Source: Gammaproteobacteria bacterium (GTDB lineage Bacteria > Pseudomonadota > Gammaproteobacteria > SZUA-152). From it: a DNA stretch of 51,485 bases. The position numbers and the translations under genes were made by a program. The DNA is taken from contig JAOUJW010000039.1 in NCBI GenBank assembly GCA_029882975.1, positions 1-51,485 on the forward strand. Reading direction: 5' to 3'. How positions within the stretch are numbered: the first letter of the stretch is position 1; each line of letters begins with the position of its first letter. Under the pieces are notes generated by a model. It worked only from the letters and a program-made list of their open reading frames with translations. It had not been told where the DNA came from and made no database searches. Positions 9,200-33,600 of the stretch are shown in pieces.

Positions 9200-10120
9200 A
9201 TGATTAGAACAATTCTTATTCTGATTCTACTGTTCGGTTCCACAGTAGCCGCAAGCGGTAATCATTACTCTGAGTCGACGGACTCAGCGACTTCATTGGA
9301 GCACATTAGGAATGTCTGCGGTGTCGAGCTGAGTCGTTGCGAATTGAGTGTCTATCGCGGCGATGAACTTGAAACCAGGCTCAACTCGGAAAAACAAACT
9401 GTTGTTTTACTGCCGGGTTCAAAGGTGGATTATTTCGTACCCTATAAGCAAAATTATATTGCTCTCGGAGCGAGAAACGATAACAGCACTATAGATCGTG
9501 ACGGCAAAATCCAGGTCAGTATGAAACACACTTTATATGACGATGGACAAGCTAAAAAGCTGTTTAAAGAAAAATTTTACATGGGGTACAGTTTTAAAAC
9601 AGTGTGGCGGGTTTGGGAGCCATCTTCTCCTTTTGAAGATCATAACTTCGACTTGGAATTGTTCTACTGTAGTGATGACGCCAATTGCGATAGCCTGAAT
9701 CAACAGCTCGCCGGTTTTCAACACCGCTACTATGTTGGATTGGAGCACGAATCTAACGGCAGGGACGGAACCGATTCGCGCAGTTGGAATCGAGGCTATT
9801 TCCGCTGGCTCACCTGGCAGGGAAGGCATGCTTATAGTGCAAAGCTTTGGTACGTTGGTCAACACGGAAAAAACAATGAGGATATCGAAGACTATCTGGG
9901 CTACAGTCAGCTCCAATACGATTACCGAGGCGACCATATTATTAGCGCAATGGCTAACGTGGGACCCAGGGGTAATGTTTTGCTGGATTGGGCTAAGAAA
10001 TCCGGAAAAACCGCGACGTTGCACTATTATGCACAGCTATTCGGCGGCTATGGAGAATCTTTGTTGTATTATAATGAAAAGCGTTATGCGTTTCGTATAG
10101 GGATCCGCCTCTATCAGTAA
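9200..10120 (+). CDS. pldA: Outer membrane phospholipase A (OMPLA, phospholipase A1)
   Basis: Calcium-dependent outer-membrane beta-barrel that hydrolyses phospholipids misplaced in the outer leaflet. The 306 residues begin with a signal peptide (hydrophobic residues 4-16, likely cut after V-A-A near residue 18). The catalytic block H-E-S-N-G-R with S-R-S-W-N-R supplies H183, S185 and N197, with the same spacing as E. coli H142, S144 and N156. W-Y-V-G-Q-H, the Y-L-G-Y-S-Q-L strand and a G-Y-G-E-S-L-L-Y-Y-N strand near the C-terminus also match the family. An extra N-terminal segment with a Cys pair (V-C-G-V-E-L-S-R-C) precedes the barrel. ATG 9200 has no good ribosome site and overlaps a possible leader ORF. 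It converges with the next gene with a 36-nt gap. Confidence 0.93.
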   Translation: MIRTILILILLFGSTVAASGNHYSESTDSATSLEHIRNVCGVELSRCELSVYRGDELETRLNSEKQTVVLLPGSKVDYFVPYKQNYIALGARNDNSTIDRDGKIQVSMKHTLYDDGQAKKLFKEKFYMGYSFKTVWRVWEPSSPFEDHNFDLELFYCSDDANCDSLNQQLAGFQHRYYVGLEHESNGRDGTDSRSWNRGYFRWLTWQGRHAYSAKLWYVGQHGKNNEDIEDYLGYSQLQYDYRGDHIISAMANVGPRGNVLLDWAKKSGKTATLHYYAQLFGGYGESLLYYNEKRYAFRIGIRLYQ

Positions 10121-10573: not shown

Positions 10574-10722
10574 AAAATACTCCTGGAAACGGTAATGTGT
10601 TATATAGTGGCGACGCTATGTCGATACAGAAATACTATTTCTAATTCAATTTCTCCAAGGGGATTATAAAATTATGAAACAAAGTGTTACTCAGAGCAAC
10701 GTAATAGATTCGGAGGAACAGT

Positions 10723-11559
10723 TTAAAAATTGGAATGGTGATACAGCCAAGCGGTAAATTTGCCGCCGGTGGCTAAATTATAGATAGCCAGAGCCAACCA
10801 GACACCGGTCAACACCAGAGCGGTGACGCTGAAACCGGAGGCCTCCGCAAGCACTTCGCTCAGAACAAATGTAAAACAAATAAAGGGGACTAAGGGATGC
10901 CAGCTGAATCTTTGCATCGTGGTTAACGGTACGGTGTCGTTGGCGTTTTGAGTTTTGTGTGTATCAGAGGACCAGGAAACCCAATCAGCAATGGGGTATC
11001 CCAACATATATGTATTGACATCACGGTCAGGAAGGCGACGCTTGTCGGCTTCGCCGGTTAATTCCTCCACAGTAGGGCCGGGGGTGGCTATAACGCTGTT
11101 ATTCTCCTCGCTATAAACATCATTCAAACAAGTGATACACATAAAATCTTCAGCCGACTGTTCATTGGGTTCATCGAGAAAACCAAGGGAAGACTGCAAT
11201 TGTGTGAGCGCTTCCTCGTCTTGCCAGATAATTTCACTGACATCGATTTGGATATATTTGTCTGCCAATTCTTCCAAAAAAGCTTCCCAAGGCAGAAAGT
11301 ACTCGTCGATATTGTCAACAAACATTTCCAGAGAGCTGAGTCGGTCTCGGCAACGTGAAAGGGCTGAGGCAGCAGCAAGTGAAAAATAATACATTTCTTC
11401 TTCATCTTGTGACGCCTGCCTGTGCTTGAGGTCTCCCGGCTGCATGCAAGCCAGCCACAGTGCCGGAATAAAATAATTGGAGCCCAGTAGTTGCTCGGAA
11501 TCTGCGTTGTCCGGCGGGCAGTTTTGAGAGTTGCTATATAAATAGGCTCGGTTGGCCAT
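10723..11559 (-). CDS. Unknown protein with MANRAYLY N-terminus and C-terminal membrane segments
   Basis: 278 residues. The N-terminus M-A-N-R-A-Y-L-Y-S resembles that of a family of small uncharacterised proteins (DUF7822-like, from memory) of unknown role. Residues 1-150 look soluble and acidic. A C-T-I-T-C-L pair near residue 143 might bind metal. Two hydrophobic stretches near residues 220-240 and 245-262 suggest a C-terminal membrane hairpin. The start at 11559 has no strong upstream site. A 9-bp inverted repeat lies upstream, between this gene and the 11731-12459 gene. No function is proposed. Confidence 0.7.
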   Translation of the reverse strand: MANRAYLYSNSQNCPPDNADSEQLLGSNYFIPALWLACMQPGDLKHRQASQDEEEMYYFSLAAASALSRCRDRLSSLEMFVDNIDEYFLPWEAFLEELADKYIQIDVSEIIWQDEEALTQLQSSLGFLDEPNEQSAEDFMCITCLNDVYSEENNSVIATPGPTVEELTGEADKRRLPDRDVNTYMLGYPIADWVSWSSDTHKTQNANDTVPLTTMQRFSWHPLVPFICFTFVLSEVLAEASGFSVTALVLTGVWLALAIYNLATGGKFTAWLYHHSNF

Positions 11560-11642
11560 AATGTTTACCGGTAAACTAACTTCGAGCCATTATAGCGCTT
11601 AAGCCGGGAAAACAAAATAAAAGTGAAACCGGTAATCACTGA

Positions 11643-11672
11643 CCCGGGCTGGTATAGCCGATTCAGCCCGGG
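11643..11672. terminator. Strong hairpin between two minus-strand genes
   Basis: CCCGGGCTG (11643-11651) and CAGCCCGGG (11664-11672) form a perfect 9-bp stem with a 12-nt loop. It lies about 60 nt after the stop of the upstream gene. No T-run follows on the minus strand, so it is either a weak or factor-assisted terminator or an RNA-stabilising hairpin. Confidence 0.45.
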
Positions 11673-11730
11673 GTTTAAAGTTCAACACTTGTGGAAGGTG
11701 AGGGGGATACCAGCACACCACGTCAGTGAG

Positions 11731-12459
11731 TCATTCAGAGGCTGCCGGTTGGTTTTCGAGTAAGGCAATACCTTGCAAGTTTTTAAACACATACTCTATT
11801 AACTCGTTTCCCTGTTGTGCATCCAATTGATACAGCCTTTCGTCTTCCATAAACCTGGACAAATTAAACCGCTCATTGAAATCATAGTATTTGACTTCTT
11901 CTTTGAACTCCTGATAGATCTTTTGTCGTTTTTCCTGTAATTGCGCCTGCTTTACAGGATCAACGGCTAGCGTTTGTTGAGAATCCGCAAATTCCAGGGG
12001 ATAAGCATCCGGGTTGTATTCTTGTTGTTGCGCTTCCTGGTCAAGAAAGGCCTGAATATCGGCAGGAAGTGCATCTTGTTCCGGGTTTTTAAACACACTT
12101 GGTCCGATCGTGTTGTTGACTATGGCTGATGCATTATCGTTTGATTGTTCCTCCATACGGTTTGTTGGTTCTACCTGTTGATCGGGTTTGCTCACGCTTT
12201 GCTTTTGATTGCTTTGAAGAGAATTACGATGTTGAATTTCCCGTTCAAAGCCGCTAAGGGGTAAGGTTAAAGATTCGGATTCGGGTAGTACGGTTTGTGC
12301 TGAATTTGTAATACCCGCATCATGTATTGGTTTATATGTGACCGAATCGGTTTGTATTGCGCTTGCACTGACCGGTCGCGTCGGTTTGTCCGTTAACGAC
12401 ACGGCAACAGCAAGTGCAACCACGGATATTCCTGAGACAATAGAGACAAATTTATTCAT
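11731..12459 (-). CDS. Membrane-anchored or exported protein of unknown function
   Basis: 242 residues from ATG 12459, chosen because GGAGAGG stands five bases upstream; an in-frame ATG seven codons earlier has no such site. An N-terminal hydrophobic stretch (residues 3-22) is a signal anchor or uncleaved signal peptide. The rest is hydrophilic, rich in Gln, Asp and Glu, with a charged, probably helical C-terminal half (about residues 160-230). No known domain is recognised. It follows the jacalin-like lectin gene after a clear terminator, so it may be transcribed from its own promoter in the 70-nt gap or by readthrough. Confidence 0.7.
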   Translation of the reverse strand: MNKFVSIVSGISVVALAVAVSLTDKPTRPVSASAIQTDSVTYKPIHDAGITNSAQTVLPESESLTLPLSGFEREIQHRNSLQSNQKQSVSKPDQQVEPTNRMEEQSNDNASAIVNNTIGPSVFKNPEQDALPADIQAFLDQEAQQQEYNPDAYPLEFADSQQTLAVDPVKQAQLQEKRQKIYQEFKEEVKYYDFNERFNLSRFMEDERLYQLDAQQGNELIEYVFKNLQGIALLENQPAASE

Positions 12460-12510
12460 GACACCTCTCCTTGGTATCAACTAAAGGTTCTCAAAATAGA
12501 GAGTAAAGAA

Positions 12511-12533
12511 GGGCTGATACAAAGTATCAGCCC
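12511..12533 (-). terminator. Rho-independent-type terminator after the lectin gene
   Basis: GGGCTGATAC and GTATCAGCCC form a perfect 10-bp stem with a 3-nt loop, starting about 20 nt after the lectin stop. On the minus strand it is followed by TTCTTTACTC, an imperfect T-rich tail. It probably ends the lectin transcript. Confidence 0.75.
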
Positions 12534-12551
12534 TGGCGTTAAAAGATGGGT

Positions 12552-13100
12552 TTATTCCCAATATACGCCTAAAGCATCAACTAAGGCTCCGGACGCACCG
12601 GTTAGTCCGTCTAGGTTCATAGAGGCAAGATTGGGATTGGAATAACGGAAGTAGCGACTGCCGGCCGGTGTACTACCAAAGGAAAGGACACGACTAGTGG
12701 TGACAACGTACAGTTTTCTCACTACCTGAATACTTCCCCAGTCACCGTAGTATCCGGAAATGTAATTGATTTTTTCACCCGGTGCGAGAGAAATATTATA
12801 TAATGTTCCCCCTGAACCTCCTCTGTGAGGGGCGAATCTAAAGGCACCGGTCGAGGTGTTTCTGAAACACAATCGCACAGCATCAATTGCCGTTCCGTGA
12901 CGTACTTGAATCAGCTCAAGGACTTCGTTGGCTCCGGCCAGATCAGAGAAAGTAGATCCACCCGTACCCCCGGACGGACCTTGCCTGGCTGCGGAAAAAG
13001 CCGATTGAGACGTAATAGCCAACAGTGTAACGACACAGGCGACGCTGAGAGCTCTAATTTTCGGAAGAAAATTAGTAAAACGTTGATTGATAGACATCAT
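12552..13100 (-). CDS. Secreted jacalin-like lectin domain protein
   Basis: 182 residues. A basic N-region and hydrophobic segment (about 17-34) ending in S-A-F-S-A look like a signal peptide. The remainder matches the jacalin beta-prism pattern: G-P-S-G-G-T-G-G-S at the start, a strand with V-R-H-G-T-A-I-D-A-V-R-L, a G-G-S-G-G-T turn followed by L-A-P-G-E-K-I-N-Y-I-S-G, then L-Y-V-V-T-T, F-G-S-T-P-A-G, and a closing L-T-G-A-S-G-A-L-V-D-A-L-G-V-Y. A carbohydrate-binding role outside the cytoplasm is inferred. AGGAGG stands upstream of tandem ATGs at 13100 and 13097; the second has the better spacing. This near-perfect site suggests high expression. It lies 147 nt after the AAA+ operon and before a terminator. 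Confidence 0.8.
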   Translation of the reverse strand: MMSINQRFTNFLPKIRALSVACVVTLLAITSQSAFSAARQGPSGGTGGSTFSDLAGANEVLELIQVRHGTAIDAVRLCFRNTSTGAFRFAPHRGGSGGTLYNISLAPGEKINYISGYYGDWGSIQVVRKLYVVTTSRVLSFGSTPAGSRYFRYSNPNLASMNLDGLTGASGALVDALGVYWE

Positions 13101-13247
13101 TCATCCTCCTTGCGAATGGTTACCTAAGTTTAATTAGTTATTGAAGCAATATCCTTATTGCCAGAGTCAAGGTAGCACAACGCAATTTACACCCCCTTTA
13201 CAGAAATGGTGATGAATGCATCCGAAACGTGTTAAACCAAAAGGGAC

Positions 13248-14387
13248 TTAGGGTTTGGCGGAACTTGGTGGGGCCGGCTGTTTTGGAGTTTGAACGAATT
13301 TTTCAATGTAGGTCCGTTTCGCGGCTTTCAATAGTGCCACAATATCGTATTTAGCCACTAGAGCACTTTCAGCAGACATAGCACGTGCCAGATTGCTGAT
13401 GTCTCGGTTTTCCAACAGGCGTATATTGGAGCGCTGACTGTTGATCCATCCCAGATCAGAAAAGGTACCAAAACCACGGTTGATCTCATTGACGATAAAG
13501 GACTCGATGGTATTGCAAAGATAAAAGTCTTCTTGGCGATTGTCCCAATTGTTACCCGCCATAAAAGAGTAGCTATATCGTTGCGTGATGGCTTCGCTTT
13601 TTCCATCGGCATTTTCTTCCGGTTTGCTGACACGGTCATCATTATGTATGCGGTACAAAACCTGGCCAATGAGTTCCTTGTCACTGTCGATGATGCCGTT
13701 GCCATCTTTATCTAAATAGTATTTGTATAGCAAGTCATCACCATAGTGCAGAAAAAAGTCTTCAATTTCTATTTTAGCCACAACGCCTTGGCCATCTACG
13801 ATTTCATAGCCGCCGTTGTTGGTGTGTGAGAAAGGACGAACAATATTGGGAGCATCGCCGATTATGAGATTATTAAGCAGAAAATAGTTTCCCGGAAACA
13901 GGTCAATTAGTCGTTCGACACGAATGTGAACCAGTTCCTGATTCGTATTGTTGATGGCGAAATCACCTTGTTTACCGCTGTTACCGGGGCTGGGTTTAGT
14001 GCCATCGTCGCTATATAAAGGTGTTGTGAATTGCTGAACAACACTCGGGCGATTAAATAAAAAAGTTGAAGACTCTTGCGCCACATAATCCACAATACCG
14101 TCTTCATGACTGATGTAAATACTTTGGGTTTCCATAGAGTTTATGGTTTGCGCCAATTCTTGTACCAGTTTGAGGCGTTGCTCACCACTGAGTTTAGCCT
14201 GGCCGTGGTATTGGTCCACTAATTCAAAAAAATGCCGTTCCTTGCTTTGGTTTTTCGGAGTGTCTAAAAATTCATCCAGCGATGTCGCAGAACGAAACCG
14301 GGTGCCCCATAACACACCCAAGGGTTTGGATCGATACGTGATAAGTTTATTCACCAGTTTCTTATTACCTTCGGCATCGGCGATCAC
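13248..14387 (-). CDS. Extracytoplasmic part of a membrane-anchored protein (3' part of a frameshifted gene)
   Basis: 379 residues from the first ATG-type start, but the frame is open upstream to about 14519 and reads as continuous protein there (T-G-T-L-D-F-R-E-T-Y-A-E). It is therefore almost certainly the C-terminal part of the protein begun at 14995, with a one-base shift near 14519. The segment is hydrophilic and mixed alpha/beta. A calcium-loop-like D-K-D-G-N-G-I-I-D-S-D sits near residue 230. The C-terminus is helical and ends in a Pro-rich tail (P-K-Q-P-A-P-P). No enzyme motif is recognised. Last gene of the overlapping operon; the lectin gene follows after 147 nt. Confidence 0.75.
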   Translation of the reverse strand: MIADAEGNKKLVNKLITYRSKPLGVLWGTRFRSATSLDEFLDTPKNQSKERHFFELVDQYHGQAKLSGEQRLKLVQELAQTINSMETQSIYISHEDGIVDYVAQESSTFLFNRPSVVQQFTTPLYSDDGTKPSPGNSGKQGDFAINNTNQELVHIRVERLIDLFPGNYFLLNNLIIGDAPNIVRPFSHTNNGGYEIVDGQGVVAKIEIEDFFLHYGDDLLYKYYLDKDGNGIIDSDKELIGQVLYRIHNDDRVSKPEENADGKSEAITQRYSYSFMAGNNWDNRQEDFYLCNTIESFIVNEINRGFGTFSDLGWINSQRSNIRLLENRDISNLARAMSAESALVAKYDIVALLKAAKRTYIEKFVQTPKQPAPPSSAKP

Positions 14388-14455
14388 GTTTACCTCAAGG
14401 TTGTGGGCGCCGCGCTCCGGGATAATACGATAATTGATGAAACGATCGTTCTCAC

Positions 14456-14995
14456 CTAAAATTTCAGCATAGGTCTCACGAAAATCCAGGGTGCCGGTAA
14501 AACTAATGCGGCTTGTACCGGCTCCAGTTTGGTAACGGCATAGGCGATTCGGGTTTTGTCTTTATCTTCCAGTTGGTACTGACCGCCTTCATCGGTGGTT
14601 TCCAGTTTTTGAATACCCAAAATATCACCCAGTTTGGTGCCGTCACTGTTACCTTTTTGAATAATGGTGCGGGCGTCTCTATCCCAAAACCGATCTTGTC
14701 TGCCGATTTTCCCACGTGAAAACTGCACGGTCTCGTTGCATTGAAATAAAACGTGTCGTATAGGATAAGCCTGACGTTTTGTGAGATAATCCTCCATCAG
14801 GAACAGCAAAACAAAAAAACAGATGGTGAGTAGCAGCAATGCCAGCAGTACCAGTTTTTTACGCATGAGCAGAAACTGTAGCAGTTTTCGCATGGACGCT
14901 TTAAAACGATCACCTCGAGTAGCGTCCTTTGAGGGAATGTCATGGAGGTATTTGTCGTGAATTCGATTGACTATAGCAATAATAGATTCTGACAT
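14456..14995 (-). CDS. N-terminal membrane-anchor part of a frameshifted gene
   Basis: 179 residues, of which the last 18 or so are out of frame. About 45 cytoplasmic residues precede one strong membrane helix (about residues 47-67, rich in Leu), followed by an extracytoplasmic domain. Up to L-E-P (near residue 160) the sequence looks natural; after that it reads Q-A-A-L-V-L-P-A-P-W and stops at 14456, while the other frame continues as a sensible protein for another 420 residues. A single missing base in the CCGG run at 14518-14521 would restore one gene of about 584 residues. It starts one nucleotide after the preceding gene's stop, so it belongs to the same operon. Confidence 0.75.
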   Translation of the reverse strand: MSESIIAIVNRIHDKYLHDIPSKDATRGDRFKASMRKLLQFLLMRKKLVLLALLLLTICFFVLLFLMEDYLTKRQAYPIRHVLFQCNETVQFSRGKIGRQDRFWDRDARTIIQKGNSDGTKLGDILGIQKLETTDEGGQYQLEDKDKTRIAYAVTKLEPVQAALVLPAPWIFVRPMLKF

Positions 14996-14996
14996 T

Positions 14997-15872
14997 CTAC
15001 CGACCTTTGGTTAAATCGTCGAAGCGTTGACTGCGTTGTTCTTGTTCCTGGGCTTGTTGTTCTGACCTGTTTTTTTGGTAGCTTGCCAATTCTTCTGCAG
15101 TTTCAATGGCGGCATCGCTCATTTGCTTGGCGACTGCATTGATCTGTCGCAGAATTTTGGCTCCGTTTCGAGACAACTTAATTTGGTAATCCCATAGATC
15201 ATCGCTGTTGTCTGCATCCGCATTCAGAAGCGTTTGTAACAAAGCCGTATTGTGAACACACAGGGAGATGGTTTCTTCAATTTTTTGTGTTTCTCCGGTA
15301 TTCTCAGCGAACATCCAAAGATCCCTTATCCAACGCCCCAGTATAAAGCCGAAAAAGAGCAAGGGAATCTGGTAAAAATCTGCAATCAATAGGCTTAGCA
15401 GACCGGATTCCTCCGGAGAAGCGATATGTATACCAATTAAAAAATCGTAAGCCAGTTCCAATACAACACACAAAACGAAAAGCAGCGGTAGTGATAGATT
15501 GTTAATGATCTCGACGCCGGAAATATTCCTCAAAGCCATAGACAAGCGTTTGAAAGGATTCACGTCGGCACGGATAATCTTTTTGTTAATGAGATGTTCG
15601 CGTACTAACGTGATGGAGTCAGTCATTGTTTTGGAATCAATGGTTTTGGCGTCCGTGGTTTTGGAATCCGCGGTTTTGGAATCCGTGGTTTGGGAGTCAC
15701 CGAATTCTGAAATTGTCGTTTTCCCCGATTGATGATCCAAAATACGCTCGATGGCCAACAAGACTTCTCGGTTGTAGTCCCCCTGCCGCTGTCGACGTTT
15801 TCTCACGGCAAAGGTGTAATCGGCCAAACTCAGCACAACGCCTAGTAACAAACGCAACGTAATACCGCTCAC
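14997..15872 (-). CDS. Multi-pass membrane protein of the AAA+ operon, with TxDSK repeats
   Basis: 291 residues. Hydrophobic segments lie at about 4-20 (weak), 128-147, 158-172 and 173-188; the C-terminal third (200-291) is long, helical and charged with many Gln/Glu, so it is likely a cytoplasmic coiled coil. Residues about 57-80 are four imperfect copies of T-x-D-S-K, made by a 15-bp DNA repeat. The start ATG overlaps the preceding stop by four bases. No family was recognised; the layout of membrane helices followed by a coiled coil is vaguely like a scaffold or channel subunit, but there is no motif to support a transport role. Confidence 0.78.
   Translation of the reverse strand: MSGITLRLLLGVVLSLADYTFAVRKRRQRQGDYNREVLLAIERILDHQSGKTTISEFGDSQTTDSKTADSKTTDAKTIDSKTMTDSITLVREHLINKKIIRADVNPFKRLSMALRNISGVEIINNLSLPLLFVLCVVLELAYDFLIGIHIASPEESGLLSLLIADFYQIPLLFFGFILGRWIRDLWMFAENTGETQKIEETISLCVHNTALLQTLLNADADNSDDLWDYQIKLSRNGAKILRQINAVAKQMSDAAIETAEELASYQKNRSEQQAQEQEQRSQRFDDLTKGR
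15629..15703 (-). repeat. 15-bp in-frame minisatellite encoding T-x-D-S-K units
   Basis: Five units of 15 bp, TTTTGGAATCCGTGG on the plus strand with a few substitutions, at 15629, 15644, 15659, 15674 and a diverged one at 15689. Each adds five residues to the membrane protein, so gain or loss of a unit keeps the frame. Confidence 0.85.
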
Positions 15873-17176
15873 GAGGTTTGCTCCAGCAAGTTAACACAGT
15901 ATTGTTTGATGATTTCTTTGCTGAGTTGATCCAATTCTGAAAACTGTTCGCCCAACGCTTGTTTGTTAAATCTTAATCCGGCTGCGATATCGTACGGCCA
16001 CCAATGGCATAATAATTTTTCCAAGGCATGGAACGATGCCGTTGGCAGCTCCATCGGCGACAATATGCGCGCTTGTACCTCAGCGGGAATATTGATTAGA
16101 TTGTCGGTCTGATATTCCCTGTTGGCGTAAATTAACAACTCGTATATGGGTGGCATATCCGTTTGATGCTGACTGATCAGACGGTGTCGTTCCGGTTCGG
16201 ACAGATTGGAAACATTGTGCCCCTTGCTTAAAAGTAAGTAGTCTTCCAATTGACGGATTCTCTGCGGTATGAGATTGTAGTTAATCGTCGCCAGTGAGTT
16301 GTGCAATAAAAATAAGAGGGCCGTACTGGTATCGTCGATGTGGATATATTCCACGTTCTTTAAGGGGCGGGGAGTGTTGTCATTATTAAATATAATAACC
16401 GATTTGGGGCGGTTTCTATCATTTTCATGGGTGGAGCGGCGGCGTGCTTCGCCACGATTGAATTTGTTGACTGCATAAGGGTTACGTACCGGGTAAAACG
16501 ACGCATCCGGTAATGACCGGAACAAATATGTGCCACCGAAAAATTGTGTGTGGAAACACTCGATGTTGACTGTCACATCGATATCAGAAAAATTAAAGCT
16601 GCGGATATCTCCAACTTGCTCCACCAGTGTCAGCATATTCATCAAGTGTTCGGCTTGATTCTCTATTAATAATTCCGGATCCGAATGCAGTTCACTGACC
16701 ATGTTTTGCAACTGTTTGGCTTGCTCAAAAAAGGGGGTAGGGGTATCCAATTCTACGGTTACCCGGCTAATGAGTGCGCAGTCTTCCACACCCTGAAAAT
16801 GGGGTACGCCATCGTTGAGCTCGCCGTAAAGGCAGTCGATCCTGGTTACCGTGGAAATCACAGACAAATAGTTTTTATATACAAAATCAATAACGGCGTT
16901 GTCAAAAGAGAATTCATCATAGAGCAAGTCTGCTTTAGCCTGGTTAGGGGTGACAACAATGATGTAGCGGTGGGCGGCACTGTTTTGCAAATAGTTTGGT
17001 CCCAGTTCCGCGTTAATTTCCGGGGAAAACCCCCGCTTGTCAATGCAGAACTGTTTTAAAGCGGTTTCTTTGCCAATGAGTTTCTTCAGGGCATGGTTAT
17101 AAGAGTCTACCAGTTCCCCGTCTACTTGAATGAGTTTATAAGGAACAATATCTTCAAAGTGATGTGTAATAAACAT
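15869..17176 (-). CDS. Unknown cytoplasmic protein of the AAA+ operon
   Basis: 435 residues without signal peptide or membrane segment. An internal basic, low-complexity stretch near residue 245 (R-G-E-A-R-R-R-S-T-H-E-N-D-R) may be a flexible loop. The N-terminal 230 residues look alpha/beta, the C-terminal 150 helical. No domain is recognised. ATG 17176 lies 12 nt after the AAA+ ATPase stop, and the stop overlaps the start of the membrane protein by four bases, so its product probably works with the ATPase and the membrane components. Confidence 0.78.
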   Translation of the reverse strand: MFITHHFEDIVPYKLIQVDGELVDSYNHALKKLIGKETALKQFCIDKRGFSPEINAELGPNYLQNSAAHRYIIVVTPNQAKADLLYDEFSFDNAVIDFVYKNYLSVISTVTRIDCLYGELNDGVPHFQGVEDCALISRVTVELDTPTPFFEQAKQLQNMVSELHSDPELLIENQAEHLMNMLTLVEQVGDIRSFNFSDIDVTVNIECFHTQFFGGTYLFRSLPDASFYPVRNPYAVNKFNRGEARRRSTHENDRNRPKSVIIFNNDNTPRPLKNVEYIHIDDTSTALLFLLHNSLATINYNLIPQRIRQLEDYLLLSKGHNVSNLSEPERHRLISQHQTDMPPIYELLIYANREYQTDNLINIPAEVQARILSPMELPTASFHALEKLLCHWWPYDIAAGLRFNKQALGEQFSELDQLSKEIIKQYCVNLLEQTS

Positions 17177-17188
17177 TGAGTATCCAGG

Positions 17189-19147
17189 CTACTTGTCGGA
17201 TAAATACCGGCTCAGTTCGGTTTTTACTTTGTGCAGCTCAGAGACGGCGCTCCGCTGTGGCGGCGCACCCAATTGTTCGGTTTCCGATCTGTAATATTCC
17301 AGCTGTGCCTGGGTATCCCATTTCAGCGAATTTTTGCGCCGTACAATTTCTTCAACCGCTTCGGTTTGAGCATAGCGCTGTTCGGAGTCAAAATATCGCT
17401 GCGCCTCTTGAAACAGTACGTCCGGCGTGATGGGTTGGTACAAATCCCGCAACATAGCGACTTTATGATCGTAGGACTTGTTGAAATATACGTTTTTGTC
17501 GGTGAACCAGTCTTCCGGTATATCGAAACGGGCGCTGCGTTCCAGAATAGCATCCATGATAGCTTTGGTGGAGCGGCCGGTAATGAGTTCATTCTGTTGT
17601 TTTAATTCAAACATGAATTTTCCAAAATCGTGAATACTGGCTTTTTTGTATCGTCTGAGCTGTTCCGCCATATAACCTGCAACATCGTCACCAGTGTTAT
17701 TGCTTTGAGTTGCATTTTGGGTCGCAAAGGGTTCGTAGGCATTATCCATAGTAATCAATTTCTGCTTTAGCATTTTCTTGCCGACGATATGTAACATATC
17801 GGCGAAGTCCTCTGCGGTCACCGGACCGTCAACGAGAAGGCGATCGCTAAAGCGGTTACGCATAGCTGAATCCAGCCCGGTGGGTTTGTTCGATGCCGCG
17901 AAGTTGATGACGTTACCGCGCCGCACCGTAAATACACCGTCAAGGTACTGCATTATGATATTGTTAATATCGTTGTCTGCCCCTTGTGCGTCGCTACGGG
18001 TGGAAGTGAGTAGATCGATGTCGTCGAAAATCACTAAGGACAAACTTTGTGTATTGTGAGTCTGGTTTAGTTTCTCCAGCAATATCTTTCCGGTTTTTCC
18101 ATAAAACTCGTCTTTGATGGATTGATCCACGGTAATAATCTGATGTTGTCGACCCACTTGTTCACAGCGTTGGACCAGGCAAGTCATGGCCAGGCGAAAC
18201 AGGGAGGATTTGCCCGTACCGGGTGGGCCATCAAACAAGTTGGTCCAGGATAAACCGCCAAGTTCGAGAATGGGGTTGTGTTCCTGTTCCGGGTCATATA
18301 ACGCCAGTCGGTCTATGTAGCGCAGAATCTTGGTTTTTGCCAAGCGGTTGCCTACAATATCTTGAGCCTGAATGGGCTGAAACGAGGCAGTACTAACCTG
18401 AGCCACGGCTGCACTGGGCAGGCTGACATCTTCGTAACTCTCAAGCGCAACATAGCTGTCCATGATGCGAAATCGATAGCCCGATAAATGTTGGAGAAAA
18501 CCCCGATAAGTAGCAGATTGCTGTTTTGCAAGACCGACGTAGTGCGCGAATATATCCCGGCAATAGGCCGGAAACTCATTGCGGTTTTTAAATACACCAT
18601 ATTCTTTTTGATGCTTGATCAAATTAACCACAATGGGGGCCAAAAGACGCTTGATCAGCACTTCTTCCTGAATCTGGGTTTGCAGTTTTATCTGACATAA
18701 ATCCAATTTTTCGAATTCATCATCAATACCGGATTGGCTTAACAGTTCATCCAGTTTTTTGTGCGCATAAACAGATGCCGAAAAAGTTGCATAGTTGCCG
18801 CAAAATCCCCGCAACAAATCAATAGCCGGGTCTTTAGTGGCGTCGGGTGAGGCAATAATTTTTTGTTTCAGGTCGGTTTTATCCGCCAGCAATTTGTAGA
18901 CGCTTTTGAAAACCTGAAAACTTTCGCGCAGCGTAATATAAGTGCCGCGTTCTGTGTCATTCATGATGTATTTTTCTTCCGGATCCAAACCGGTGATCAG
19001 CTCGGGTAGCGCATGGGATTGGTTTTGATAAAAATAATCCACAAAAAGGCTTTCAACACTGTCCTTATGGACAGCGATTTCATCCGGGCCGATGTCGATG
19101 GGGTTATTCTGTGCTTTCAAACAAGCCTCCACGATCGCTGAGACCAA
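17189..19147 (-). CDS. AAA+ ATPase with long helical N-terminal domain
   Basis: 652 residues. The first 270 are helical and lack a known domain. The AAA+ module follows: Walker A G-P-P-G-T-G-K-S-S (K313), Walker B V-I-F-D-D-I-D (D375, D376), a sensor 1-like A-A-S-N-K-P-T-G-L-D, and R-N-R-F-S-D-R-L, which holds the likely arginine finger. This order is that of the FtsH/katanin/spastin (classical AAA) clade, suggesting a hexamer that remodels or unfolds a protein partner. There is no protease domain and no membrane helix. It overlaps the preceding gene by 44 nt and is the only enzyme recognised in the operon, so it is likely the motor of the system. Confidence 0.9.
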   Translation of the reverse strand: MVSAIVEACLKAQNNPIDIGPDEIAVHKDSVESLFVDYFYQNQSHALPELITGLDPEEKYIMNDTERGTYITLRESFQVFKSVYKLLADKTDLKQKIIASPDATKDPAIDLLRGFCGNYATFSASVYAHKKLDELLSQSGIDDEFEKLDLCQIKLQTQIQEEVLIKRLLAPIVVNLIKHQKEYGVFKNRNEFPAYCRDIFAHYVGLAKQQSATYRGFLQHLSGYRFRIMDSYVALESYEDVSLPSAAVAQVSTASFQPIQAQDIVGNRLAKTKILRYIDRLALYDPEQEHNPILELGGLSWTNLFDGPPGTGKSSLFRLAMTCLVQRCEQVGRQHQIITVDQSIKDEFYGKTGKILLEKLNQTHNTQSLSLVIFDDIDLLTSTRSDAQGADNDINNIIMQYLDGVFTVRRGNVINFAASNKPTGLDSAMRNRFSDRLLVDGPVTAEDFADMLHIVGKKMLKQKLITMDNAYEPFATQNATQSNNTGDDVAGYMAEQLRRYKKASIHDFGKFMFELKQQNELITGRSTKAIMDAILERSARFDIPEDWFTDKNVYFNKSYDHKVAMLRDLYQPITPDVLFQEAQRYFDSEQRYAQTEAVEEIVRRKNSLKWDTQAQLEYYRSETEQLGAPPQRSAVSELHKVKTELSRYLSDK

Positions 19148-20294
19148 ACATTTTTACATGCCTGTCTATTTTAATATTGTGATAGTGCGCTTTTTGAATC
19201 AAACGGTGCGGCAATATCATGAACGTTGGGGTAACCAGTGTTTTGGAAAAATGTCCTAAATGTCTGTCGCCGGATAACCAGGCTTTGATCCAGTTCTTCT
19301 TATTGCTGGATTCACCAATGCGATGAACGGAATACATTTTAAATGTCATTATGGAGTCGGTATCCGCTCCTTTGGAGAGCAATTCCTGTACGGCGTCCGG
19401 GTTTTCCGTAAAGCGGTTGTAAAACGGTCCCACGTCAATACGTTGAATTAAATGCACTTGAATTCCAAGAATGTCCTCTATGGTTTCCGCCATATAATCC
19501 AGCTCTCTGTCAATGGAGAGGTTAGTGCATTTTAAAAAGGCTTCTCGTAACTCCGAGAACAAGGTTGAGCCGTCGGGTGAGGCAGAAGGAAACTTAAAAT
19601 GCACTGCGTAAAAACGCGGGGTATTAAAGTTTTCTTCCAGTCTTTGTACGCAGACGACAAAGTGGTTGTCCTCTTCGTGGCCCAATTGTACCGGCTCTCC
19701 AAAGCGAATGCTGCTTAATTCCGGAATATTACGCAGTCCCGTGACAATATTCTTGGTCATTTTCGCTTCGACAATATCTGCAGGGAAAACACCGCGAAAA
19801 ATACTGAACAGGGCATCGTCCACCAGACGTTTATTGCTGACGTTTTCGTTACCATTGCTTAAGGCGGATTTACGTTCCTTGTTCAGGAAGTGCAAATCAC
19901 GAACGAAAAGGGGGAAGCCCGATTCCGTTGGGTCTATGGACAGATCGATACTTTCCCGATCAAGAAATTTGTCGCGTTGCATACGAGTGCGCAGAATGTC
20001 GGTGACGTCCAACAGAATTTTCAAAAAATCCTGCAGCTGCGCACGATTGTTAAAGGACTGAATCACGTCTTGTTGAAACAGCATCCACATATGCGCCAAC
20101 ATGGATTTCAATTCATTTAAGTGCAACAAACCATCATCCATCTCAAGGGTTTTAAAGTTTTTCCCCTTAATACTGGACATGGTGGAGCGTCCGGCCACTG
20201 AAATTTGGTCACTGTCGTGAATACGTTTCATAGTGCCGGACGATTCCTGTCGGTGCAAAACCACAAGGGGGCTAAGCTCACTCGCTGTCTCCAT
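19104..20294 (-). CDS. Unknown cytoplasmic protein of the AAA+ operon
   Basis: 396 residues, no signal peptide or membrane helix. The region 50-110 is helical, while 200-330 looks alpha/beta with hydrophobic strands (H-F-V-V-C-V-Q, R-F-Y-A-V-H-F-K-F). No known domain or catalytic motif is visible. The gene overlaps the coiled-coil gene by 17 nt and the ATPase gene by 44 nt, unusually deep overlaps that argue for conserved co-translation. It could be an adaptor or substrate of the ATPase; that is inference from position only. Confidence 0.78.
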   Translation of the reverse strand: METASELSPLVVLHRQESSGTMKRIHDSDQISVAGRSTMSSIKGKNFKTLEMDDGLLHLNELKSMLAHMWMLFQQDVIQSFNNRAQLQDFLKILLDVTDILRTRMQRDKFLDRESIDLSIDPTESGFPLFVRDLHFLNKERKSALSNGNENVSNKRLVDDALFSIFRGVFPADIVEAKMTKNIVTGLRNIPELSSIRFGEPVQLGHEEDNHFVVCVQRLEENFNTPRFYAVHFKFPSASPDGSTLFSELREAFLKCTNLSIDRELDYMAETIEDILGIQVHLIQRIDVGPFYNRFTENPDAVQELLSKGADTDSIMTFKMYSVHRIGESSNKKNWIKAWLSGDRHLGHFSKTLVTPTFMILPHRLIQKAHYHNIKIDRHVKMFGLSDRGGLFESTE

Positions 20295-21387
20295 AGCGTT
20301 CCTGCTGAGACATTTTGGCCTGCTGTCTTACTTTGTCGTAGCGTTCGTTGAAAGTTTTCATGGTATCTTCCATACGATTCATATAGCCACGCATAACTTG
20401 CTCATCAATCAGCTGAATTTCCGCTCGGGCCATGGTGGCATCACTGACGGACTGAGCCGATTGCGTAATGATGTCAATGGACTGATCCGTAGCCACATTG
20501 ACGGCTTTATCCAGAGATTCCATCCCCTTGGTGGTCATCATGATTTTCACCGCCTCCGGTGCGGCCATGTAGATATCGGTTACGTTATCGATCTTTTCCT
20601 TGATCATAGTGGCTTGAATACCCAGATCACGTACCATTTTTTCGAAGGCATCGCGAGACTGAATATTGCCTTGGTAAGCCTGTTGCGCCTGATTGTAAAT
20701 GGTCAGCACTTGGTCATGCTCGTTACGCACATTGGTTAATTGTTTGTACAGGTTTTCCTTTTCCTCCACCAGTTTGGCTTGTTCGGAAGCCTCAGCTTGG
20801 TTGTACTTGTTTTCCATTTCCGCATAGGCTTCGGTCAAGGCATCCAGTTTTTCCTTTAAGGCCGCTTCCTGTGGTTCGTACTCGGAAATTTTCGTAACAA
20901 TAATGTCTACATTGGTTTGCAAGCGGGCGTAACTGCTCAAAGCATCTTCGCGCACATTGATGATTTCATCATACAGTTGCTCACCGTAGTCAAGAATCAT
21001 TTTCAGGTTTTCCCGCGGACCTTGCTCCTTTAAACGGGTTACGCGCATTCGGTTGGCGCTATCGGTAGAGAACAAGCGCACCAGTTTTTCCCAGCCTCGG
21101 TAGTTCTTGCTCTCCGCGGCGAATTGAACGTATGCACCCAAACTGTCCGTAAGCCCAGTGGACAAATCGGCAATGGTGCCATTAAAGCTGCCGTATTGCT
21201 CCAAGCCTTGATCCAGTTTGGACAAGGTGCTATCAGCCGTTTTGAGGCCTTCCACGTTCATGCCCTGGTAAAGTTTCTCAGACTGTTCCAAACCCTGGTA
21301 AAGATCATTGGTGAGACTTTGACGCTGTTTGCGTAAGGACTCCAGTTTTTGGGATTTTTCCCGCAGCAGCTCCATATTTTCTTTCAT
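20278..21387 (-). CDS. Coiled-coil protein, first gene of the AAA+ operon
   Basis: 369 residues, rich in Glu, Lys, Gln and Leu, with long predicted coiled coils (about 1-35, 150-270 and 325-365) and no membrane segment or signal peptide. A short conserved-looking stretch around D-Y-G-E-Q-L-Y-D-E-I-I-N-V-R-E-D-A-L (residues 133-150) recalls the helical core of TelA-type proteins, but the similarity is too weak to assign. ATG 21387 has only a weak AAAGGT site. A sigma70-like promoter and a 16-bp palindrome lie about 50-90 nt upstream. Confidence 0.8.
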   Translation of the reverse strand: MKENMELLREKSQKLESLRKQRQSLTNDLYQGLEQSEKLYQGMNVEGLKTADSTLSKLDQGLEQYGSFNGTIADLSTGLTDSLGAYVQFAAESKNYRGWEKLVRLFSTDSANRMRVTRLKEQGPRENLKMILDYGEQLYDEIINVREDALSSYARLQTNVDIIVTKISEYEPQEAALKEKLDALTEAYAEMENKYNQAEASEQAKLVEEKENLYKQLTNVRNEHDQVLTIYNQAQQAYQGNIQSRDAFEKMVRDLGIQATMIKEKIDNVTDIYMAAPEAVKIMMTTKGMESLDKAVNVATDQSIDIITQSAQSVSDATMARAEIQLIDEQVMRGYMNRMEDTMKTFNERYDKVRQQAKMSQQERYGDSE

Positions 21388-21438
21388 GTTCTTGTTACCT
21401 TTATTGGTCTGTTAATGGTTTAAGCTGTGCAAAGCACC

Positions 21439-21454
21439 GTCTGTAAATACAGAC
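21439..21454. promoter_or_regulatory. 16-bp palindromic operator candidate
   Basis: GTCTGTAAATACAGAC is a 7+2+7 inverted repeat. It lies directly downstream of the -10 hexamer of the AAA+ operon promoter, where a repressor would block transcription start. It contains CTGT-N4-ACAG, so it is not a canonical LexA box (which needs N8). Confidence 0.5.
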
Positions 21455-21482
21455 ACATTAAACCATAAGTGGGGGTGGTCAA
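21455..21482 (-). promoter_or_regulatory. Sigma70-like promoter of the AAA+ operon
   Basis: On the minus strand TTGACC (21482-21477) and TAATGT (21460-21455) are separated by 16 bp, with the predicted start near 21448, inside the palindrome. Confidence 0.45.
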
Positions 21483-21579: not shown

Positions 21580-22239
21580 TCACCTAAGCCGGGCTTGGTT
21601 TCTCCAAACCAAAAACAACACAGCAAGGGATATAACACACCAAGCGCTAATCCAAACGATGGTGGGTACATGTGTGAGCTGTGCCAATTGAGCGGCATCG
21701 TTTTTTGTCGTACTTCCCAATAAAAATGTGGGTGCTCTAATGGCACTGACCATGACATAGATACCGGAAAATTCAATCAACACAGGAAAGATACGACCCA
21801 GGGTGAAATAGAAGGCGACAGACAAGATTGAGCAAATAACAATCAAAATAATCCAGCTGGTCGCATCGCGGGCCCACAGTAAACCGCTGATTCCGATGAG
21901 CACTGCCATGAGTAAAGCCATCCAATGGCTGACTGCACCTGTCATACGTGCACCCAGATATATTAAAGCCCCCCATAAAGCCGCTCCCAGGTAACCGGAA
22001 AAAGCAATCAGTGCGCCGCGACCGCCAATTGTATAACAGACTCCACTGCCGTCGAAATTCAACTCGATATTACGAATGCTGCCGCCACTGAGTATAGCCG
22101 CAATCCCATGTGAGATTTCATGGAAATAGGTTTCCAACCAGGAAAAGGGCCAGTGAAGCACCGGTACTTGAGACAAGCCAATGGCTCCTAGCACCAAAAG
22201 CAAAAAGGTGATATGCGGTTTCAGCGGAATTGCCGGCAT
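21580..22239 (-). CDS. M50B-like membrane zinc metallopeptidase
   Basis: About 219 residues from ATG 22239; an in-frame TTG two codons upstream is less likely. An H-E-I-S-H motif (HExxH) follows the first membrane segment, at about residue 42, with a G-G-S-I-R-N-I-E-L strand after it and six or so membrane helices, as in the PF13398 M50B-like family. A third zinc ligand was not located with certainty. Substrate unknown; related proteins have been linked to regulated intramembrane proteolysis or housekeeping. The start lies two bases after the stop of a short propeller-like ORF, so the two are co-transcribed. Downstream is the promoter of the AAA+ operon, on the same strand. Confidence 0.82.
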   Translation of the reverse strand: MPAIPLKPHITFLLLVLGAIGLSQVPVLHWPFSWLETYFHEISHGIAAILSGGSIRNIELNFDGSGVCYTIGGRGALIAFSGYLGAALWGALIYLGARMTGAVSHWMALLMAVLIGISGLLWARDATSWIILIVICSILSVAFYFTLGRIFPVLIEFSGIYVMVSAIRAPTFLLGSTTKNDAAQLAQLTHVPTIVWISAWCVISLAVLFLVWRNQARLR

Positions 22240-22241
22240 TA

Positions 22242-22493
22242 TCAAAATGCCGGTTGTATGACCACTCGACTGGTACCTGCCAGAAAAACAGTGCCACCAT
22301 CTGCGCTCAATAGCATCTTTGGATAACTGCCGGGAGTGGAAATAGCCACACCCGTTCCAATTTCAGGGAGGACGCTGTTAATATCCGGATTGCTCAGATC
22401 GTATTTTCTCAAGGTACTGCTGTCCAGTGCATAAAGGCTGTTGCCATCCAGGCTAAAGGCGACCGCTGTGGACGTAATGGGTAATCTTCCCAT
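22242..22493 (-). pseudogene. Beta-propeller fragment (probable remnant)
   Basis: 83 residues with two propeller-like blades (A-V-A-F-S-L-D-G-N-S-L-Y-A-L-D and M-L-L-S-A-D-G-G-T-V-F-L-A-G). This is far too short for a complete propeller and has no signal sequence. The frame is open upstream of its ATG and overlaps the end of the lipoprotein fragment that precedes it, so the two probably derive from one lipoprotein with a propeller that suffered a frameshift and an internal deletion. Confidence 0.5.
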
Positions 22494-30630: not shown

Positions 30631-30645
30631 GAATTGGTGGTCCAT

Positions 30646-33600
30646 GTGAAAATAAAACACATATTCGACACAATAAAGTACTCTTTGCTATTGATGTGCA
30701 CTGTAGTTAAGTTAAGTGTAGTTTCCTTAATGCTCAGCCTGACCTGGTCATCACTCGCCTACGCCGTGGTAGAAACGCACTCTGGGGAAATCAGTATCGA
30801 TACGACTTGGTCAAAAACCGGTGTGGAAGCGCACTGGGTTACGAGCACAGTGACCGTGCCTGCGGGAGTGACATTAACCATAGAAGCCGGAGCGGTTGTC
30901 AAATTTAGTGTTAGTGCTAGATTAGATGTATATGGTGTTCTGAATGCGGTCGGTATCGCGGATACCGATCCGATTGTGTTTACATCATATCGCGATGATT
31001 CGGTAGGAGGAGATACCAATGCCGATGGCTCTAGTGTAGGTCAATTAGGTGATTGGAGTGGTATCAATTTGCACTTAGCCGGGTCTACCCTATCTCGGTT
31101 TGAAAATAATATTTTCCAATATAGTGGCGAAGGTTTGTATGTAAACAAGTCCGACAGTTCAATTGTTAATAACATTTTCAATTATAACGGATACGCTTTA
31201 TACATTCTTGATGCATCCCCGGTAGTGAATAATAATACATTGGCGGATAACAGGGATGCATTGGTTATAGACGATAGCCTGGGCGTACAAAATATAACCC
31301 TTAGTGGTAACTCGGTCCTAAGAAACGAGTACGGCATCGTACTGTGGGGGTCAACAGCTCTCATCGAAAACAATACAATTTCGGACAATACTGCCTGGGG
31401 TTTGTTCTATGATAGTTGGTATGCGGCTCCGGTTATCAAGAATAACATAATAACGGGTAATCTTTATCCTACCTACCTGCCTGCAAGTGCAGTTCCCAAC
31501 GCTGTGGATGGAAACACACTCATACCGAATACGAATAACGGCTTGTGGATTCGAGGGAATGACCGAGCCACAAATCTAAACCTGGATGTAATTTCATCGG
31601 TGGATGCGACACTAAACACCTATCACGTGAAAGGTGAATTAACCATGGCCAGTGGTAGCACTTTGTCTATTGGTAATGGCGTGATCATGAAATTCGATCC
31701 CAATTCCGGGCTGAACATAGACGGTACGTTAAGCGCTTTAGGAACAGCGAGTGAGCCGGTGGTCTTTACATCCGTAAAAGATGATCGTTACGGGGGAGAT
31801 TTTAATAACGATGGGAATTCAAGTATACCGAATTCCGGAGATTGGGGTTCATTATCTTTCAGTGATACTTCAACCGCTAATGTCATCGAAAATGCAATTA
31901 TTAGATACGGTGGGGGGCTAAACGAAAGCAACCTGTATTCCTATTACGGCCCTTTGATTTTGCGGAATAGTGCGGTGTCTTTTTCCAGCGGGCATGGTCT
32001 AAACAGTTTCGGTGCCAACGTTACATTGCAAAACAATGAAGTGTTCGCGAATGCTTGGGATGGATTGCATTTTGAAGACTCCGGTACCTCTAGTGTAACT
32101 GGGGGAAGAATCTATGCCAATCTCCAGAACGGTATCAGTGTAAGTGGCGTCGCAAGCTTTAGTATCAGCAATTCTGAGATTCTTGGAAATTCCTTGTATG
32201 GCGTTATTAATACAACCAGCCCCGTCGTGGGAACCGTTGCTACCGCAAATTGGTGGGGAGATGTTAGTGGGGCGGGAGGTGCTTTATCGGGCCAGGGTGA
32301 CAAGGTAAGTAACAATGTTGATGCCGGAGCGCCATTGGGTACGGGTTCATCCATTAGTTACTTTAATGCCGGCGAAAATGCTTCTTTAGGGATTGCCGCG
32401 CCAGTAGTGGTTCGGGGAAGCCCGTTTTCGGGTGCAAGTCCTGCAACCAGCGGTTTGTTGGATCTTGAATCGGTGCAATTAAGCTATCCGTCTTTGGATG
32501 TTAATAAACGCTACGACATATTTCTTACTTACTTGAATCCCGCAGAGCCGACCTATCAATACTCTACAAGCGGATCTGGAGTGCTGATTCATGACAGCGT
32601 ATACGTTGACAATACCAATCCACAAGTACACCGTTTTCCCCTTGTGGTTCAAGCATACGCCTCCGGGACCATGGGCCTTACGATAAATTCGGATGCGGAC
32701 AAAAGCGCTGCTGTGTCGCAGGTGTGGCTGATAGAATCTTTATCTGCGGGCGATACTGTTGCGCCCGTCAGTACAATTGCCATTCCGACGAATGGAACAT
32801 CCTTAAATCCCGGGGGTAGCGTCGTCACAATCAGCGGAAATTCGACCGATGATCTGGGTGGTAGTGGGATTGTCGGTGTACAACTAGGAATCAATGATGG
32901 TATATCAACGCAGTGGTACAAAGCAGCCTTGCAGAGTGACGGTACGTGGACATTTGACTGGACTGTTACAAGCGATGGTGACTACACTTTGTATGCCAGC
33001 GCGATTGATAATGAGGGGAATCGAGAAAATTCATCGAGCGGAATTAATGTTTCCATTGATACGATGCTTCCAAGTCAAGCTACCGCATTGTACGCATACG
33101 ACAAACCGCAGGATTCGGGTGGTGTTATAGAACTGTTCTGGACTTTGTCTCCTGATGACGGGGAAGGTTCAAACGACGTGGTCTCTTATGAAGTGCAACG
33201 GCGTACCGAAACTGGTTCTTTTGGGGTTGTAGGTACTGTCGCAAATGGAATAAGTAGCTATTCAGACACGACAACGATCAACAGCGAATCTTATTATTAC
33301 AAGATTATCGTTTTGGACCAGGCGGGTAACCGGTCAGCGGATTCTGTAGCCTATGGCCCGGTAGTCGCCTTAGATAACACTATCAGCGATACCGTACCGC
33401 CAGAGGACGTTACGGCATTGACAGCAGAGGCCGGGAATCAATCGGCCTACCTCAGTTGGACAGCAAGTGTGGATTCTTCCTTGGATTTAGTTCAACAACT
33501 TTTAGATGTCTCCATTGATGGGGGAGTTACCTGGGGTCAAAATCAACCTGATTACAACGACGGGGGTTCGATTCCGCTAAATAAAATCAGCACGAACCAA

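Follow-up and report, generated by a model that had tools for sequence, protein, structure and literature searches.

Contig JAOUJW010000039.1 of assembly GCA_029882975.1, from a gammaproteobacterium, was analysed over its full 51,485 nucleotides, and this whole stretch of DNA is called the window here. Its minus strand carries an operon that encodes, in order of transcription, a coiled-coil protein (cc), a protein of no recognised kind (unkA), an AAA+ ATPase of the classical clade, a DUF6638 protein, a two-helix membrane protein and a single-pass membrane protein, followed by a jacalin-like lectin. An earlier note, made from the sequence alone, had described six overlapping or abutting genes, and the table of open reading frames (ORFs) confirms this layout, in which three gene pairs overlap (17, 44 and 4 nt) and two are separated by short gaps (12 and 1 nt; Table 1). 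It is well supported that the first four genes, cc, unkA, AAA and DUF6638, form a real unit and are the conserved heart of the operon; we refer to these four genes as the cassette.

A conserved four-gene cassette

To identify the cassette genes independently of the window copies, we searched profiles built from relatives only against the 265 ORFs of the window. Each profile recovered its gene in place, with E values of 7.4e-12 for cc, 1.3e-8 for unkA, 2e-71 for AAA and 6.4e-49 for DUF6638, and the next-best window ORF scored E 0.04 or worse against any of them (0.09 for the unkA profile). Scanning a genome collection with the ATPase profile gave at least 492 relatives among at least 591 candidate stretches, from which the best 80 loci were taken; their titles are mostly those of Rhodobacterales and Rhizobiales. 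The order cc, unkA, AAA, DUF6638 is kept on one strand in 72 of these 80 loci. Among the remaining loci, the ORFs are split in L091 and L109, and contig ends truncate L054, L093 and L101. The same cassette neighbours occur in annotated loci of Sinorhizobium and of Vibrio, where the order also recurs. Additionally, iterative profiles from the window proteins found relatives of cc, AAA and DUF6638 in 18 of 18 neighbour loci; the profile from window unkA found no relative there at E 1e-3. The expectation that the six genes would co-occur in this order apart from their flanks holds for the first four and was not borne out for the membrane genes in those 18 loci, and the idea of six genes and the lectin as one system is unsupported, with four genes conserved and the lectin unseen in relatives.

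The interval between AAA and DUF6638 looks like an insertion hot spot. In 39 of the 76 loci with DUF6638 the two genes lie more than 400 bases apart and enclose an insert, and the recurrent insert ORFs include one in 10 loci that we take for a RelE-like toxin, one in 9 loci that we take for a DUF559-like endonuclease and one in 4 loci that looks antitoxin-like; the insert ORF in L023 is annotated 'endonuclease domain-containing protein'. The same locus, on pSymB of Sinorhizobium meliloti, also has an IS4-like transposase, ISRm16, between AAA and DUF6638 (10579-11742).

The cassette is apparently undescribed. At the Pfam cut-offs, AAA and DUF6638 are the only two of the four core proteins to receive a name, and NCBIfam, searched with the four proteins of locus L025 and with window cc and ATPase, gave matches only far below its cut-offs. 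We found no mention of DUF6638 in the literature searched, which omits most subscription journals and bioRxiv, and no description of this gene set either there or in the family and defence libraries. The earlier note was correct that the set matches no named system and that a classical-clade AAA+ motor is accompanied here by undescribed partners, but it misplaced the borders of the unit. It had called the fourth protein unknown; that label no longer applies in full, since the N-terminal half matches a Pfam family (see below).

Table 1. Features of the operon and its downstream end in the window
Feature	Position	Strand	Remarks
cc, all-helical coiled-coil protein, 369 aa	20278..21387	-	First cassette gene; profile relatives in 18/18 neighbour loci
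unkA, 396 aa, kind not recognised	19104..20294	-	Second cassette gene; window-free profile of 44 relatives
Classical-clade AAA+ ATPase, 652 aa, large unrecognised N-terminal region	17189..19147	-	Third cassette gene; Pfam AAA
DUF6638 protein, 435 aa	15869..17176	-	Fourth cassette gene; Pfam PF20343
Membrane protein, two predicted helices	14997..15872	-	Hydropathy; sits where relatives have DUF1523/DUF2333
Front part of single-pass membrane protein, frame broken	14456..14995	-	Predicted helix at residues 48-66; sequence
Continuation of the frame-broken protein in another frame	13248..14519	-	Predicted soluble, no membrane helix
Jacalin-like lectin with N-terminal signal-like segment	12552..13100	-	Pfam Jacalin; neighbour outside conserved unit
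Terminator-like perfect 11-bp hairpin with T-rich tail	12510..12534	-	Downstream of lectin gene; weak

The ATPase

The window ATPase has a single Pfam AAA match (E 1.4e-14). The best matches of its core in the PDB are AFG2, CDC48/VCP and proteasomal Rpt subunits, with VPS4 lower. Motif residues were read from an alignment of 35 members, window included. The Walker A motif GxPGTGK[TS] is present in 35 of 35, and the sensor-1 residue N420 and the arginines R430, R432 and R436 are invariant; the arginine-finger role is assigned to no single one of these three. The pore-loop pattern aromatic-x-G-K is also kept, reading Y-Q-G-K in 34 of the 35 proteins and F-Y-G-K in the window, where it aligns to FYGET of AFG2. 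Judged from these residues, the ATPase keeps most of what an ATP-hydrolysing, substrate-threading ring requires, with Asp replacing the catalytic Glu. It is probably a variant member of the classical clade, a placement based on its similarity to CDC48, AFG2 and Rpt.

The partner proteins

By a simple hydropathy scan, which we used for all predictions of membrane helices, none of the four core window proteins contains a membrane helix. The AlphaFold2 model of cc is all helical, with a predicted local distance difference test (pLDDT) of 73.7 and a predicted template modelling score (pTM) of 0.57; residues 275-333 are unreliable. Its longest confident helices, 124-197 and 200-275, would each measure ~110 angstroms by their length. 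Foldseek placed ClyA/AhlB-type alpha-pore-forming toxins first (E 2e-3, probability 1.00, template modelling score (TM) ~0.4). In VIA, syntaxins, Sso1, STAT3 and a designed protein reached Z 13-15 (maximum 14.9) and AhlC, SmhB and AhlB ~12-13; high VIA scores are common for helical bundles. The ESCRT-III/PspA fold is not among the 50 listed matches of cc in Foldseek or VIA, a result that excludes nothing with a model of this pTM.

Window unkA is 15-18% identical to 10 relatives, with 16 invariant columns in the alignment, and has no Pfam match. When it was used alone in phmmer, the best match was a Vibrio protein at E 9e-4. Neither unkA nor DUF6638 has a PDB sequence match at E 5. The DUF6638 protein matches PF20343 in its N-terminal half (residues 15-231; E 1.8e-29; 103.3 bits against a curated cut-off of 27), and the window-free profile also touches the C-terminal half. 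A model of a relative, from locus L108, reached pLDDT 85.6 and pTM 0.80. Its whole chain found nothing closer than Foldseek E 0.85 in the PDB and 0.5 in BFVD, and Z 5.0 in VIA, a whole-model search that leaves a known fold in one domain possible. We also considered unkA and DUF6638 as paralogues and rejected this, as hhalign gave a probability of 0.1.

The fifth position and the lectin

Directly downstream of DUF6638, 75 of 76 loci carry one of two membrane protein families, DUF1523 (39 loci) or DUF2333 (36 loci), with a contig edge in the last. In 19 further loci DUF1523 occupies this position 11 times and DUF2333 six times; neither family stands there in the window or in the Vibrio locus L022. 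For the four DUF1523 and DUF2333 members that were scanned, one or two membrane helices are predicted. Treating DUF2333 and DUF1523 as one family was rejected at an hhalign probability of 0.4. A duf2333 gene is reported in the hcp3 locus of a strain with a type VI secretion system (PMC5256989).

The DUF1523 and DUF2333 profiles match nothing anywhere in the window. Window membrane proteins as divergent members of these families were likewise rejected at an hhalign probability of 0.1 in three comparisons of single sequences, which have low power: 14997-15872 with DUF2333, and 13248-14519 with DUF2333 and with DUF1523, the front piece 14456-14995 being left out. The two window membrane genes and the lectin have no relatives in the 18 neighbour loci, to which this search was confined, genome collections not having been searched for them. 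ORFs 14997-15872 and 13248-14519 also have no match in the plasmid collection, a search made with these two sequences and not with the front piece or the lectin.

The earlier note had taken 14997-15872 for a multi-pass membrane protein, and two helices are predicted; it had taken 14456-14995 for a membrane-anchored exoplasmic protein, of which the predicted membrane helix stands. This ORF looks like only the beginning of a longer gene. The reading frame ends at 14456; between 14561 and 13251 another frame is open, in which the sequence carries on as a soluble protein, so the single-pass gene looks frameshifted, whether by a real lesion or by an assembly error. The earlier gene list had omitted ORF 13248-14387. 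The continuation 13248-14519 presumably lies outside the inner membrane. The jacalin-like lectin had been recognised correctly: Pfam Jacalin matches residues 41-180 over profile positions 2-136 of 136 (E 1.5e-19), behind an N-terminal hydrophobic stretch. The fifth position thus varies, being filled in the window by these two membrane genes, and the lectin lies alongside without belonging to the conserved unit. The proposed membrane layer beside the motor is found in relatives as DUF1523 or DUF2333, but either family can fill the place, and both are also kept where the module is missing.

Distribution and movement

Searches for DUF6638 gave one carrier among 96 sampled relatives (the window's own genome) and 20 among 299 genomes sampled across the phylum. 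Of 72,556 plasmid records 10 matched; these are 0.88-4.6 Mb long, and every one is typed as non-mobilizable. Window DUF6638 and cc had no match in 50,697 phage records, a search of limited sensitivity with such divergent copies. The ATPase was found in two of 369 sampled genomes of the window's class (its own and G142) and in one of 24 of its order. These scans scored up to 3 candidates per genome in the class, 8 in alphaproteobacterial family f116 and 10 in family f112, which is probably Rhizobiaceae, and some absences may be misses. In f116 an ATPase match occurs in 63 of 149 genomes and DUF1523 in 130; in f112 the ATPase occurs in 71 of 121 and DUF2333 in 94. An obligatory five-gene unit was rejected, since DUF1523 and DUF2333 are present in more genomes than the ATPase. 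Nearly all carriers in both families have a single copy of the ATPase.

We examined 20 hand-picked regions from genomes without an ATPase match, 12 around DUF1523 (f116) and eight around DUF2333 (f112). AAA, unkA and DUF6638 were not found in any of the 20, although region L145, at only 3,489 bases, is weak evidence. In f112, 30 of 34 module-positive loci share one gene upstream of cc, and this gene stands directly beside DUF2333 in five of the eight module-negative regions (L156, L158, L159, L160 and L163). Of the other three, L161 has another upstream flank gene, L162 has a cc-like ORF in between and L157 looks rearranged. Some of the 12 f116 regions also have upstream flank genes near DUF1523; the evidence is weaker there, with flanks common to at most 16 of 39 loci. 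Thus, in the sampled regions the four genes are present or absent as a block and the membrane gene stays. In locus L025, from genome G142 of the window's class, all four proteins are nearest to those of the alphaproteobacterial locus L029, which fits transfer as a block.

We also compared the tree distances of the genes. Pooled over every second alphaproteobacterial locus (45 loci), agreement was r 0.97-0.99, values inflated because the loci fall into two clades. Inside each clade, with its first 40 names taken, r was 0.80-0.97 among cassette genes and 0.69-0.88 for the fifth gene; AAA with DUF2333 (0.88) exceeds unkA with AAA (0.86). As controls in one clade, two sense-looking transporter ORFs of the flanks agreed with the cassette at 0.62-0.80 and a third long ORF, which may hold a transporter ATPase, at 0.84-0.91. 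Among antisense flank ORFs, one gave 0.79-0.88 (20 loci) and two gave 0.05-0.35. In either clade the closest agreement is that of unkA with DUF6638 (r 0.91 and 0.97), which hints that these two proteins may touch each other.

A copy on a presumed jumbo phage contig

The whole five-gene set is carried by the IMG/VR contig IMGVR_UViG_3300035698_035310 (L180, 125597-147522), 359,044 bases long. On one strand it reads DUF2333, cc, unkA, AAA, DUF6638, with DUF2333 in front rather than behind. The E values are 8e-91 for DUF2333 (full length), 9e-128 for cc, 2e-112 for unkA, 5e-241 for AAA and 6e-100 for DUF6638. Neighbouring genes encode an HNH endonuclease, a DNA polymerase exonuclease subunit, a protein with a weak match to Rz-like spanins (E 1e-4), a peptide deformylase, a protease ATPase of a phage family and a protein whose top match, phrog_14336, has no assigned function; we presume this last protein to be DnaJ-like. 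The contig is listed as viral by IMG/VR, and from 21.9 kb of its sequence we read it as that of a jumbo phage. The changed order makes a functional tie of the cassette to DUF2333 more likely than an inherited neighbourhood alone. The literature searched yielded nothing on jumbo phages with AAA+. A second IMG/VR entry, UViG_2643221551_000002 (L181, 9620-10939), has a contig end inside a 439-aa ORF that is weakly cc-like (E 2e-10) and matches no Pfam family at E 0.001.

Comparison with known systems

By analogy, the nearest concept is Vps4 with Snf7/PspA. ESCRT-III with Vps4 and the bacterial PspA-AAA+ sets (PMC11237479) likewise place a classical AAA+ beside a long-helix protein, with membrane neighbours. 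In contrast to those sets, cc has no Snf7 or PspA Pfam match, and no MIT, winged-helix, ABC-transporter or OmpA partner was seen in the cassette. The section of PMC11237479 on Vps4 and classical AAA+ deals with other gene sets and does not name unkA or DUF6638.

Cdc48/VCP, AFG2 and the 26S Rpt subunits are the closest solved sequences to the AAA core, and the pore-loop aromatic and arginine positions are kept; unlike them, the cassette ATPase has one AAA match, a different N-terminal region and D-D in Walker B. TelA/KlaA (PF05816) is also a soluble helical protein of a size similar to cc, but we rejected cc as a TelA relative because none of 20 cc members matched and hhalign gave probabilities of 3.2 and 0.9. 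TelA genes occur in 21 of 120 sampled genomes, eight of which also carry the cassette, at another place; TelA was not found in the window's genome. The ClyA/AhlB-type toxins head the Foldseek list for cc and score Z ~12-13 in VIA. We nevertheless do not read cc as an alpha-pore-forming toxin, as it matches none at E <=0.001, has no predicted membrane helix and is matched better in VIA by other helical bundles (syntaxins, Sso1 and STAT3). The defence ATPases IetAS and TRIP13 show a weak AAA-core match; no model of IetS or of another partner matched the neighbours, and cc has weak PADLOC likeness to a 2TM effector, DruC and LmuB.

Proposed function and alternative explanations

We tentatively favour the cassette as one machine that docks at the membrane and uses ATP for remodelling or disassembly, comparable to Vps4 or to Cdc48 with its adaptors, and consider this a real possibility that falls a little short of probable. 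Co-inheritance, the motor residues, the predicted helical rod and the membrane neighbour are the observed steps from which we infer the mechanism. The ATPase would form a hexameric ring, and unkA and DUF6638 would act as adaptor or receptor, bringing a substrate or membrane protein to it. cc would serve as the polymer or scaffold on which the ring works at the inner membrane, building it, taking it apart or recycling it, in the manner of Vps4 with ESCRT-III or NSF with SNAREs. The docking point would be the DUF1523 or DUF2333 neighbour, and other membrane proteins would have replaced these in the window lineage. A bolder version, in which a remodelling machine on the ESCRT plan, with no detectable sequence relation to ESCRT-III and PspA, is kept by many alphaproteobacteria and was taken whole, dock included, by a jumbo phage, we consider unlikely. 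In that version the phage copy would perhaps remodel or protect the host envelope.

Several observations weigh against a membrane-docked machine. L081 and L084 lack DUF6638 in the flank examined, and L068 has AAA by itself. In 35 of 35 ATPases the catalytic Glu position of Walker B is Asp (D-D rather than D-E), which could mean slow or gated hydrolysis or a structural role. The fold matches of cc are helical bundles, with no support from ESCRT-III/PspA Pfam families or TelA; the Snf7 and PspA_IM30 models gave no match at E 0.01 among 20 cc members. As for the dock, Vibrio has mfd, and no membrane gene, directly downstream of the cassette. DUF1523 and DUF2333 persist without the cassette, so their partnership with it is one of position only, and the DUF1523 of L025 is nearest to that of L094, not L029. 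In L162 a lone cc-like ORF (10816-11946; E 3e-12) stands directly beside DUF2333, either as a remnant or as an independent use of cc. Lastly, tree agreement hardly separates the cassette, because its values overlap with those of the fifth gene and the flanks; only unkA with DUF6638 (0.97) lies above them.

Some of these observations would also suit a cytoplasmic unfoldase or chaperone like Cdc48 or Afg2, with two adaptors and a coiled-coil regulator, that acts on soluble complexes and has the membrane gene as a mere neighbour. The top PDB matches of the ATPase are AFG2, CDC48/VCP and the proteasomal Rpt rings, no membrane helix is predicted in any of the four core window proteins, the gene directly downstream of the Vibrio cassettes is not a membrane gene, and the two membrane families live on without the cassette. 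However, this account leaves aside that DUF1523 or DUF2333 follows in 75 of the 76 loci with DUF6638 and that the phage contig keeps DUF2333 with the set in a changed order; we regard it as somewhat unlikely. An anti-phage defence system, composed of a motor, a sensor and a rod-like effector, had been raised as an option and is weakly supported. In its favour, presence is patchy in the two alphaproteobacterial families (63/149 and 71/121 genomes), a phage contig carries the set, some loci have toxin-antitoxin-like and endonuclease-like ORFs in the interval from AAA to DUF6638, and the cc model resembles alpha-pore-forming toxins in Foldseek (E 2e-3, TM ~0.4). In PADLOC the ATPase weakly resembles IetA, TRIP13 and LmuB, and cc weakly resembles a 2TM effector and DruC (both at E 0.0046), but these matches are generic, to the AAA core and coiled-coil stretches, and unkA, DUF6638 and the membrane genes match nothing. 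Both the near-constant single copy and, in one family, the shared site speak against a defence island that moves about. Moreover, window DUF6638 and cc are absent from the phage records (with the limited sensitivity of divergent queries), the few plasmid carriers are all typed non-mobilizable, and the sole phage carrier found has the whole set beside a full-length DUF2333. We regard defence as quite improbable.

A trans-envelope arrangement is possible, but that the six genes and the lectin make up one trans-envelope export machine is very improbable. The overlapping genes, the membrane genes in the fifth position and the secreted-looking lectin would suit it; against it, none of the 18 neighbour loci yielded the membrane genes or the lectin, plasmids gave no match to two of the three membrane pieces, and one membrane gene looks frameshifted. 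Chance neighbours with no joint function are hardly credible: the low sequence identity of the window copies is all that speaks for them, against an order kept in 72 of 80 loci, presence or absence as a block in the sampled regions and a phage-borne copy.

To our knowledge, few bacterial partner systems have been characterised for classical AAA+ rings of the Vps4/Cdc48 kind. The cassette is simple, with four genes, has a shared site in one alphaproteobacterial family and offers natural presence/absence pairs ready-made. It includes a protein for which no fold match was detected, DUF6638, and a giant phage took the whole set.

Neighbouring genes

The hairpin at 12510-12534 is possibly the end of the transcript; hairpin-type terminator sites in the region number 9 against 10.1 expected in shuffled sequence, which is chance level. 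Beyond the lectin lie minus-strand ORFs 11731-12480 (one predicted membrane helix) and 10723-11559 (two), both lacking a Pfam match, and a phospholipase A1 family protein is encoded on the plus strand at 9200-10120.

An M50B-type peptidase gene (21580-22245) lies 192 nt upstream of cc. Relatives of this peptidase occur in 8 of 23 other genomes of the window's family, none of which has an ATPase match. In four regions around these relatives no window genes were found except a generic GGDEF-protein match in three; as the other window genes are missing from these regions, the site is not comparable as an empty site.

At 30634-50498 the window has two giant ORFs of 4200 and 2420 aa that have one base in common, at 43236. 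They contain beta-helix, fn3, Ig-like, PKD-like and TSP3 repeats and probably encode giant surface or secreted proteins.

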